Source: an uncultured Cellvibrionales bacterium (lineage in GTDB: Bacteria; Pseudomonadota; Gammaproteobacteria; Pseudomonadales; Porticoccaceae). Taken from it: a stretch of 64,000 bases of DNA. Shown piece by piece: positions 1-3,668 of the stretch. Where the stretch lies: assembly GCA_913031145.1 (NCBI GenBank), contig CAJWCO010000002.1:1-64000 (forward strand), read 5' to 3'. A program made the translations under genes and the position numbers. Position 1 is the stretch's first letter. Each line of letters begins with the position of its first letter. Under the pieces are notes generated by a model. That model was not told the origin of the DNA, made no database searches, and saw nothing but the letters and a program-made list of their open reading frames with translations.

Positions 1-386
1 ACCGCGCCCGAGACAATTGACATGGCGGTAGCAACAAACACTACCTGAAAGAAAAAGTCTGACGCACCTGAGTAATAGGTATCTCCACCGCTAGCGTAAA
101 CGGCGTCCGCTGTCTCATTCGCAATGCTGTTGCCGAACCACGCATCAGGCAAATACAAGCCTGAAGTCCCTCCGTACATAATGGAATAACCCATTACCAT
201 GTACATGCAACAAGCAATTGAATACAACGCCACATTTTTTGTTAATATTTCAGTAGTGTTTTTGGCTCTCACAAAGCCAGCTTCAAGCATCGTAAAGCCT
301 GCGGCCATCCACATTACGAGCACACCCGACATCAAAAAGTAAAAGGTGTCGAGTGCGTATTTCAATCCTACAATATCGTTTTCCAT
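1..386 (-). CDS. amtB: Ammonium transporter AmtB, N-terminal part, cut by window start
   Basis: Inner membrane ammonium channel of the Amt/Rh family. About 128 residues are visible. They begin MENDIVGLKYALDTFYFLMSG and contain the family hallmark AGFTMLEAGFVRAKN after the first membrane helix, followed by further hydrophobic segments. The start ATG (codon 386-384) lies 56 bp after the glnK stop, the usual glnK-amtB order in which GlnK plugs the channel when nitrogen is plentiful. Unlike E. coli AmtB, no separate cleavable signal peptide precedes the first helix. Probably cotranscribed with glnK and the porin gene upstream. The rest of the gene is outside the window. Confidence 0.95.
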   Translation of the reverse strand, partial: MENDIVGLKYALDTFYFLMSGVLVMWMAAGFTMLEAGFVRAKNTTEILTKNVALYSIACCMYMVMGYSIMYGGTSGLYLPDAWFGNSIANETADAVYASGGDTYYSGASDFFFQVVFVATAMSIVSGA

Positions 387-442: not shown

Positions 443-811
<369 letters not shown>

Positions 812-911: not shown

Positions 912-939
912 TCCTCCGACCAGCCAGCCAGTCGGAGGA
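912..939 (-). terminator. Perfect 9-bp inverted repeat between porin gene and glnK
   Basis: TCCTCCGAC (912-920) and GTCGGAGGA (931-939) form a perfect 9-bp hairpin with a 10-base loop, 29 bp after the porin stop. On the minus strand no T-run follows the stem, so it is not a canonical intrinsic terminator. It may act as a weak terminator, an RNA processing site or a 3'-end stabiliser that sets the porin to glnK-amtB ratio. The structure is seen; the function is inferred. Confidence 0.45.
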
Positions 940-968: not shown

Positions 969-1637
969 CTAAAATGCGAAGGAATAAGACGCAACTAATA
1001 CTGGTTCGTCATCCGTAATATCGTCTTCAAGAGGGAAGGTGTAGGTGAACGAAATACTATCATTGAACGCATAACTGATGTCAAAGTGATCGCTGAAGGC
1101 GCTTTCATGATCACCGTATAAAAAGCTGAACGCACCAGCTTCAACTGCCACGGTGGTGTAGTAGTAATCCGGATTAGGAATGTAGCCGCCCCCTTCCGCT
1201 ATATTTTCATAGTGAGTCAGACTCACAGGTCCCATCCCAAGACTTATATATGCTTCCATCGCATCACCTATATTACCTTCGGTTGCACGGGCATCAGTTT
1301 GGATACCTCCTGTGGGATACACATACGATATGATTCCGACGTCATAAGAAAGTGATCCAGCCTCACCCGCGAACCCCGCGTAAAGGTCGTATTCGGTCCC
1401 CGCAGATGTATCGCCAGACGATACCCACATCCCAGCGTAAAAACCCCCTTCGGCAAAATCCAAACTTGCTGAAACCGCGGGGGCACCATCCCCCAAATCA
1501 ACACCACGCCACAAGTATGAGGTGGCAACCCCAGCAGAAGCGCTCAGCTCGCCCGCAGACACTGCGGGGGCCAACGCGGTCAACGATAAAGCAGAAGCTA
1601 CGGCTACAGACATCACAGATTTGTTAAAATTCTTCAT
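969..1637 (-). CDS. TorF-family putative outer membrane porin
   Basis: A 222-residue outer membrane protein. The start at 1637 is chosen over an upstream in-frame ATG because it begins a clear signal peptide (MKNFNKSVMSVAVASALSLT...) with likely cleavage after APAVSA (residue 28). The mature protein starts GELSASAGVATSYLWRGVDL, typical of the TIGR02001/TorF-like family, where a SYLWRG-type motif follows the signal peptide. Alternating beta-strand residues and a C-terminal phenylalanine (SYSFAF) fit a beta-barrel inserted by BAM. It lies upstream of glnK-amtB in the same direction, and a sigma-54 promoter precedes it, suggesting a role under nitrogen limitation. The substrate is unknown. Confidence 0.85.
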   Translation of the reverse strand: MKNFNKSVMSVAVASALSLTALAPAVSAGELSASAGVATSYLWRGVDLGDGAPAVSASLDFAEGGFYAGMWVSSGDTSAGTEYDLYAGFAGEAGSLSYDVGIISYVYPTGGIQTDARATEGNIGDAMEAYISLGMGPVSLTHYENIAEGGGYIPNPDYYYTTVAVEAGAFSFLYGDHESAFSDHFDISYAFNDSISFTYTFPLEDDITDDEPVLVASYSFAF

Positions 1638-1713
1638 GAACAACTCTCCCAAGTGAACTTTTGTGTTTCGATTAAATTTGGCGTGGCCTTTCAAACAACC
1701 ACGCTCATGTCTT

Positions 1714-1731
1714 TGCATGATCCGTGCCAAT
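1714..1731 (-). promoter_or_regulatory. Sigma-54 (RpoN) promoter for the porin-glnK-amtB unit
   Basis: On the minus strand the sequence TTGGCACGGATCATGCA matches the sigma-54 consensus TGGCACG-N4-TTGC at all but one core base. The invariant GG and GC are exactly 10 nt apart. Expected transcription start is near 1703, giving a 5' leader of about 65 nt before the porin ATG at 1637. An NtrC-like dyad lies about 135 bp upstream, the normal enhancer distance. Confidence 0.75.
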
Positions 1732-1829
1732 TCTTATATCGTAATAAAATCGCGTAAAGCGGTAAAAAAACGGTACTTAGCAAAACCATCGCACCAGCAA
1801 GAGTCAAAAATGGCATCGCCCGGCAAAAA

Positions 1830-1848
1830 GCGCACCAAAAAAGTGCGC
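1830..1848. promoter_or_regulatory. NtrC-like enhancer site
   Basis: GCGCACCAAAAAAGTGCGC contains the dyad GCAC-N7-GTGC, the exact spacing of the NtrC consensus (TGCACCA-N3-TGGTGCA). Its centre is about 135 bp upstream of the predicted sigma-54 start. A lone half-site GCACCA lies near 1791. The same hairpin could in principle fold in RNA, but no gene ends here. NtrC binding is inferred from pattern and context. Confidence 0.6.
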
Positions 1849-2201: not shown

Positions 2202-2250
2202 AAAAAACCTGAAATTAAAACCGCCATCATCGCCGTTGGGAGGGACCCCT

Positions 2251-3668
2251 ATCGAACTGGCCGAAATATTTACGCGCGCCACCAGAGGCATCGATTCGCC
2301 CTCCGTCGCAGTGCAAGTCCATCTATCCAATGGACTACCCGCTTTTAACAGCGTCGGGCTTCCTGAAACTACGGTTAGATAAAGCAAAGAACGCGTGCGC
2401 CGCGCACTGCTAAATTCACACTTCGAATTTCCAGCGCGCCGTATTACCGTGAATTTAGCACCCGCCGAGCTGCCCAAAGACGGCGGTGGCTATGATCTCG
2501 CCATTGCCATGGGAATTCTTGCAGCATCGCAGCAAATACCGACAGACGCACTCCACCACTACGAATTTGTTGGGGAGCTTGCGCTATCAGGCGCCCTTCG
2601 CGGTATCGCCGCTATACTGCCGGCGGCCGTTGCCTGTGCAGCGCGGGGAAAAGCGTTAATCGTCGCCACAGAAAATGCTGACAGCGCCAGATTTGACAAA
2701 GGCGTGCGACTTTTCGCTGCCGATCATCCGCTGGCGATTTCCGCACATCTCTTCGGGCAAAAATCGCTGTCTCTCTGTTCACAAAAAGACCATCCCACAG
2801 AAACCAGCGAGCCTGATAACGCAAACCAAGGCGAATCCTCTTTAAATGATGTAATCGGTCAAGACCATGCCAAACGGGCCCTAAAAATCATCGCATGCGG
2901 TGGACACCATACGCTTTTTTTATGATCCGCACGGGGCGGGTAAAACCACGTTCGCGAGCCGTTTTCCCAGCATCTCACCGAGTCTAGCCAACAACGATGC
3001 ACGCGAAGTGGCCGTCGTATATTCGGTGGCAGGGCGAAATCTCACTTGCACATCTGGGTGTTCTTTTTCTGGATGAACTACCTGAATTTTCGCGCGCCGT
3101 ACTCGAAGTTTTGCGCCAGCCTCTGGAATCGGGAGAGATTTTGATTTCTCGAGTAGCCGCTCAACTGGTCTACCCCGCTCGCTTCCAGCAGCTCGCAGCC
3201 ATGAATCCCTGCCCTTGTGGTTATCTGGGTTATCCGCAATGTCAGTGCAAAACCGAGCAAATAAAACGCTACCGCGCGAAGGTATCAGGCCCGCTGATGG
3301 ATAGAATCGACTTGCAAGTCCAAGTATTGCCGATTGCTAGGCACGCTTTAACCGACCCTCATCAGACCGGCACGCAGGGCGATATGGCCGCTCTCCGAGC
3401 AACCATTGTTAAATCGCGCCGGCGCCAATTCGCCCGCCAAGGATTTCTCAACAGTCAACTCGACAGTCGCGCCTTACTCAAATACTGTCCATTGGACAAG
3501 GCACAAAAGGCGTTAATGCACCACGCCATTGATCACTACAATCTGTCTACTCGCAGTTACTACCGAGTGCTACGCGTCGCGAGCAGCATTGCCGACCCCG
3601 AGGATATTGCTAAACCGAAACTGCAACATTACCAAGAGGCTCTGAGTTTTCGACAACCCTCTGCGTGA
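2251..3668 (+). pseudogene. comM: Decayed comM/yifB (Mg-chelatase-like AAA+ ATPase)
   Basis: Remnant of the roughly 500-residue ComM/YifB ATPase, a hexameric helicase that aids branch migration during natural transformation. Four lesions are seen. (1) The expected start codon reads ATC (2251-2253) although a GGGAGG ribosome site stands 7 bp upstream. (2) A TAA at 2380-2382 interrupts VGLPETTVR/SKERVR. (3) A run of seven Ts (2915-2921) shifts the frame just before Walker A (DPHGAGKT, normally GPPGxGKT). (4) At about 3033 VYSVAG is joined to GEISLAHLG with loss of roughly 40 codons, including the expected PFRAPHH region, and a second frame change. The rest (FLDELPEFSRAVLEVLRQPLESG, NPCPCGY, SGPLMDRIDL) is well conserved, so decay looks fairly recent. 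Confidence 0.93.

Follow-up and report, generated by a model that had tools for sequence, protein, structure and literature searches.

The beginning of the window (the whole stretch of DNA that was analysed, 64,000 nucleotides from an uncultured Cellvibrionales bacterium) raises the question of what a putative porin does at the head of genes for ammonium uptake, and when it is made. TorF porins are widely annotated without an assigned substrate, and passage across the outer membrane is rarely considered in ammonium or urea uptake by bacteria at very low supply. A tight tie of the porin gene, across the class, to glnK-amtB and to the nitrogen-starvation promoter, with urea and formamidase clusters as further settings, makes "putative porin" a testable claim, namely that TorF serves as a nitrogen channel of the outer membrane and is produced under nitrogen scarcity.

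Gene order and upstream sites

The torF porin gene, glnK and the start of amtB lie on one strand of the window in the nlmA-glnK-amtB gene order, with the following features:

1..386, minus strand: start of amtB (ammonium transporter, marine subtype; PF00909 53.8 bits, TIGR03644 157.8 bits, 128 residues present)
443..781, minus strand: glnK (P-II signalling protein; PF00543 112.4 bits)
913..938, minus strand: hairpin CCTCCGAC/GTCGGAGG just past the torF stop, with no T run
969..1637, minus strand: torF (Gcw_chp, TorF family putative porin; 222 aa, ATG at 1637; PF09694, TIGR02001)
1714..1729, minus strand: predicted sigma-54 promoter TGGCACGGATCATGCA (-24/-12; one mismatch, GG-N10-GC core)
1791..1805, minus strand: degenerate second NtrC-like site GACTCTTGCTGGTGC, 41 bp closer to the promoter than site 1
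1832..1846, minus strand: GCAC-N7-GTGC dyad GCACTTTTTTGGTGC, proposed NtrC binding site 1, exact and aligned in all eight genus members read

The amtB gene is incomplete because the contig begins at window base 1. On the plus strand, divergent from torF, are ubiK (BMFP; 1950-2201) and yifB (Mg chelatase-like ATPase; 2250-3668). The latter is broken: consecutive sections of TIGR00368 are matched by two ORFs, at 2395-2925 and 2997-3668, which no one reading frame joins, as a result of either decay or an assembly error.

The porin scored 70 bits against PF09694 (cut-off 24) and 68.1 bits against TIGR02001 (cut-off 47.15), with the best-matching stretch ending at residue 144 or 141, respectively, of 222. 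A signal peptide, recognized by eye, precedes a predicted 12-stranded barrel. The AlphaFold2 model, made from a 26-row alignment (the window protein and 25 rows used out of 30 candidates), had 12 strands, a mean pLDDT of 73 and a pTM of 0.69. Its best structural matches were small outer-membrane channels, all known barrels: KdgM (Z 14.7), a COG4313 channel (14.6), VhGalP (14.1) and NanC (13.4). Other barrels were close behind, so that the matches indicate the kind of fold and not the substrate. A search by sequence up to an E value of 1 found no relative with a solved structure.

An earlier note on this DNA had proposed a near-consensus RpoN promoter ahead of a TorF-like porin gene, and this was borne out. 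The stretch TTGGCACGGATCATGCA (1714-1730, minus strand) contains the 16-mer TGGCACGGATCATGCA, which differs at one position from TGGCACGNNNNTTGCW, which we take to be the sigma-54 promoter consensus. The GG-N10-GC core and the TGGCAC-N5-TTGC context are both present, and the 16-mer ends 76 bp before the torF ATG. The dyad described in the same note is also present, 102 bp from the promoter edge to edge; the distance of about 135 bp given for it fits only if measured from the dyad centre to the start site predicted from the promoter (about 1703). In the range of about 80-150 bp upstream, where NtrC dyads are expected, lie the exact dyad at 1832-1846 and the second site at 1791-1805, which the note did not report and of which half is kept. 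The note had further held that glnK and amtB lack a promoter of this kind, and indeed no sigma-54-like site with up to three mismatches was found on the minus strand between 387 and 1000, so that neither gene has its own one there. A sigma-70-like scan gave nothing near the promoter and nothing in the torF-glnK gap.

With the shuffled 64-kb window as baseline, one promoter word was found (1.09 expected, up to one mismatch being allowed) and four dyads (1.45 expected). Both counts are at chance level, so that neither the word nor the dyad is significant in the window when taken alone. The 2.2-Mb genome has two places where the two are paired at a spacing of 85-115 bp, and none with the reversed pattern. 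The second pair (C4:47448-47585; L286, G000) is upstream of a glutamine synthetase gene of 338 residues, named from its sequence by eye; about 1.4 kb separate the end of this gene from the ntrC match that follows at C4:50119. Since the only two pairs are at torF and at glutamine synthetase, the motif-only search recovered promoters that nitrogen control would predict. The genome has one match to RpoN (PF04552, 216.3 bits) and encodes NtrC (TIGR01818, 721.9 bits; curated cut-off 558.6). By eye, the 338-residue glutamine synthetase resembles the eukaryote-type GSII, and further GTGC/GCAC half-sites lie between its gene and the upstream pair.

Conservation in the genus and across the class

Conservation in close relatives had been named in the earlier note as a check on both sites, and the check came out in their favour. 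The porin was searched for in the genomes of 58 relatives and was matched in 35, including 10 of the 14 genus genomes (G000-G013). The 330-bp upstream region was compared in the eight genus members with the locus, the window included. The window's region is only 42-49% identical to those of the other members, yet three elements are aligned and kept in all eight: the promoter motif TTGGCA[CT]-N6-TGCA, the dyad and, within the second site, its GGTGC half. The other half of the second site is not kept, and in every member 41-43 bp separate the two NtrC-like sites. From dyad to promoter the distance is 117 bp in the window, compared with 120 or 121 bp in the seven relatives.

Two genus members, L026 and L031, have in the same slot a porin from another, distant branch of the TorF family. 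In a tree of 176 rows, from which rows with an odd length or a stop had been left out, the path from the window porin is 3.8 to L026, compared with 0.6 to L009. In the set of seven, these two genomes have the GlnK (88-90% identity to the window, compared with 80-86% for the others), AmtB (86% compared with 78-81%) and UbiK (59-61% compared with 53-55%) nearest to those of the window. A distant porin among the nearest neighbours suggests that the porin gene was probably exchanged in place, with the promoter elements and the neighbouring genes staying behind. Such a swap argues that the slot, rather than the exact porin, is what is kept.

The wider survey drew 369 genomes over the class, 190 of which contained PF09694. 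Of 150 places, 130 were read among the matches listed; 6 were second copies inside loci already read, 14 were left out, and weaker matches were unlisted. Among these listed matches, glnK is downstream of torF on the same strand in 83 of the 130 genes, with a gap above 110 bp in 9 of the 83, and it is near torF in another order in 4 more. Many of the glnK-linked torF genes in the class adjoin ubiK and/or yifB, and the chromosomal place itself therefore seems old.

Motifs were searched up to 450 bp from the start, distances to the ATG being approximate in that torF start codons were chosen by rule. The promoter had GG and GC fixed and up to two mismatches, the dyad was exact, and a pair was 60-160 bp apart. 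Four of the 130 genes, with under 250 bp upstream, were left out of these counts, which covered 80 linked genes and 42 genes without glnK. The linked genes (among the matches listed) had the promoter in 63 of 80 cases, the dyad in 54 and both in 45, counts that are descriptive because related genomes are not fully independent. The corresponding numbers were 0, 1 and 0 of 80 for the reversed sequence and 1, 1 and 0 at the coding start, and both motifs together were found in none of the 80 in each of three controls. A promoter match was missing in 17 of the 80, and an exact dyad in 26. Unlinked genes had the promoter in 15 of 42 cases (reversed, 1 of 42). In the relatives set, the promoter with up to two mismatches preceded 17 of 19 glnK-linked torF genes, and an exact dyad was present at 12 of these 19; of the unlinked torF genes, 6 of 11 had the promoter.

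Dyad-promoter distances in the class follow the helical phase, clustering near 80, 90, 101, 110, 121, 132 and 143 bp. The period is near 10.5-10.75 bp (R 0.61, n = 68), and none of 5000 jittered sets scored as high; with one distance per gene, R was 0.65 (n = 53). The window deviates from the preferred phase by 3-4 bp, which is a point against its site working perfectly.

A strong hairpin is present in the 187-bp torF-glnK gap of the window, and the gaps of the other genus members also contain hairpins, of different sequences. Across the class, a stem of at least eight pairs was found in 40 of the 60 gaps of 40-130 bp, compared with 6.2% of shuffles; 23 of the 83 linked genes fell outside this range and were left out, and the window and its genus were examined apart. 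At least five T in the next eight bases followed the hairpin in 8 of the 60. The hairpin may stabilize or help to process the message, to the advantage of the porin relative to glnK-amtB. Given the long gap and the strong hairpin, read-through from torF into glnK is not certain.

Other genomic settings of torF

Away from glnK, several torF genes are found among genes for other small nitrogen compounds. In three unlinked class genes (L161, L172, L176), torF lies between ureG and urtA, with UrtA at 573-608 bits (cut-off 492.75) and UreG of L161 at 352 bits. In L158 torF is behind ureF and ureG, and in L080 an unlinked torF is followed by an ammonium transporter. Among the relatives, L019 has formamidase FmdA (653.8 bits) upstream of torF and UreD downstream, L025 has UreD downstream (placed by eye), and L020 has UrtA on the other side of torF. 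The porins of L019, L020 and L025 belong to the starred clade, 18 rows in size, that includes the window porin. By starred branches, the urea label requires at least four separate changes on the tree; the link of TorF to urea therefore seems to have arisen repeatedly.

A tally of the genes directly beside the 58 torF genes that lack glnK downstream (47 from the class, 11 from the relatives), 111 neighbours in all, was made on mechanical ORFs, some of them on the wrong strand, as for UrtA of L161, so that it is a lower bound. PF01774, the UreD family, was present in 2 of the 111, and most unlinked torF genes had no recognizable nitrogen neighbour within the 1.5-2 kb read. Rep-type helicases made up 6 of the 111 and mark a second recurrent location of torF; at two of these places (L077, L160) a sigma-54-like site is kept.

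TorF genes also occur in phages. Genes for TorF/Gcw_chp proteins are carried by 22 viral contigs (IMG/VR, L259-L280; for example L265:1962-2639 and L262:2016-2600), and phage gene neighbourhoods were recognized, partly by eye, in 7 of the 9 contigs whose neighbours were read. The gene is between those for a DnaB-like helicase and ThyX in five (L259, L264, L265, L267, L276) and between the Gp23 major capsid and tail tube genes in two (L262, L269). None of the four phage-contig TorF proteins tested had a PHROGs family, and the stretches of viral contig read contained no P-II gene. In the Caulobacter phages CcrSC (L282:3007-3696) and CcrBL9 (L283:3013-3702), a TorF-like gene annotated as hypothetical is followed, after 9-10 bp, by genes for PnuC-like nicotinamide mononucleotide transport and for a nicotinamide-nucleotide adenylyltransferase. 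The TorF-like and PnuC-like proteins might conceivably form a phage-borne pair for import across the outer and the inner membrane. Acinetobacter phage AB1I1M-1 (L281:3968-4675) has a gene annotated as a TorF family putative porin a few genes from gp56 dCTPase. The TorF of Acinetobacter "phage MD-2021a" was rejected as a phage gene, as it sits among catabolic genes of a chromosomal kind.

Proposed role and comparison with known systems

We consider the best explanation of the whole, and a probable one, to be a torF-glnK-amtB unit of the nlmA-glnK-amtB kind under NtrC/RpoN control, with the porin as the outer-membrane nitrogen step. When nitrogen is short, phosphorylated NtrC would bind the dyad, and probably the weaker second site too, and would contact RNA polymerase with RpoN at the -24/-12 promoter. 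The transcript would start with the porin and should continue into glnK and amtB, and the hairpin after the porin would probably let the porin message exceed the rest. The small 12-stranded porin would bring scarce small nitrogen compounds into the periplasm, with AmtB as its likely inner-membrane partner. The earlier note's reading, in which the porin is co-induced with ammonium uptake, gains support from the conservation of the sites, the presence of RpoN and NtrC, and analogy with the Herbaspirillum seropedicae operon (PMC3023670).

It is very improbable that the motifs are chance matches beside a porin without a nitrogen role. Each word is expected about once per window, as such a reading would have it, but the genome has just two such pairs, of which the second precedes glutamine synthetase, and the conservation, the phasing and the zero joint matches in three controls speak against chance. 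The promoter might instead serve the porin only, the hairpin ending or cutting the message and glnK-amtB having a promoter of another type. The 187-bp gap with its strong hairpin favours this arrangement, which we nevertheless regard as unlikely: the window hairpin has no T run and few class gaps have one (8 of 60), scans found neither a sigma-54 site in 387-1000 nor a sigma-70-like one between torF and glnK, and in H. seropedicae, with the order nlmA-glnK-amtB, an amtB-lacZ fusion follows nitrogen and NtrC (PMC3023670).

More serious, if still rather less than probable in our estimate, is a porin for other small nitrogen sources (urea, formamide, short amides) and not for ammonium, sharing a promoter with glnK-amtB since all would be wanted when nitrogen is short. 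The torF genes away from glnK in urea and formamide clusters (L161, L172, L176, L158, L019, L025, L020) could be explained in this way, three of them being in the clade of the window porin in the tree. To our knowledge, E. coli takes up ammonium without TorF, which also counts for a urea or amide porin. Against it, most TorF genes read, 83 of 130 among the matches listed, sit with glnK-amtB. As for the wider meaning of the NtrC/RpoN-controlled unit, nitrogen scavenging probably has in TorF porins its outer-membrane component. A broader generalization is offered tentatively, as something short of likely: in many proteobacteria, TorF/Gcw_chp proteins may be dedicated to the passage of small nitrogen nutrients through the outer membrane, paired with the importer at hand (AmtB, Urt, formamidase/urease clusters) and mostly NtrC/RpoN-controlled. 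Two porin lineages would swap the slot within a genus, and phages would have taken the porin up, in CcrSC/CcrBL9 ahead of a PnuC-type importer.

In the open-licence literature we found nothing linking TorF to glnK and amtB, with prior statements elsewhere possible, and no paper naming Gcw_chp or TIGR02001. New here are the class-wide breadth, the replacement of the porin in place, the urea and formamidase contexts, the recurrent hairpin after the porin and the phage copies.

Among characterized systems, torF of Shewanella oneidensis (SO4694) has been called an outer membrane porin (PMC5955497). This protein is the name-giving member of the window porin's family, the name coming from TIGR02001. 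Its gene is reportedly regulated by TorR with trimethylamine oxide (the work, from 2004, is Bordi's). The KdgM, NanC and COG4313 channels resemble the predicted fold of the window TorF, with 7-10% sequence identity and other substrates, and the likeness demonstrates no function. FmdC of Methylophilus methylotrophus is described as an outer-membrane porin in an ammonia-repressed amide and urea uptake cluster (PMC10781810). The fmdA-torF-ureD context in L019 is like that cluster.

The closest known system is the nlmA-glnK-amtB operon (orf1glnKamtB) of H. seropedicae, which is nitrogen-controlled and NtrC-dependent by experiment, an amtB fusion being 21 times higher when nitrogen was limiting (PMC3023670). 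NlmA is described there only as a most probably periplasmic membrane protein of unknown function, and not as a porin (PMC3023670). In the sister species H. huttiense (L241), the order is a Gcw_chp gene (PF09694, 163.6 bits), glnK after 12 bp, and amtB; a sigma-54-like site TGGCACGGCTCCTGCT and a dyad GCACCAGCAGCGTGC lie upstream. This position links the experimentally NtrC-controlled NlmA, by analogy, to the TorF family. The window differs in belonging to another class of bacteria and in its 187-bp porin-glnK gap with a hairpin. Since it shares the gene order, the Gcw_chp first gene of H. huttiense and the upstream promoter and dyad, the window unit appears to be a known kind of operon.
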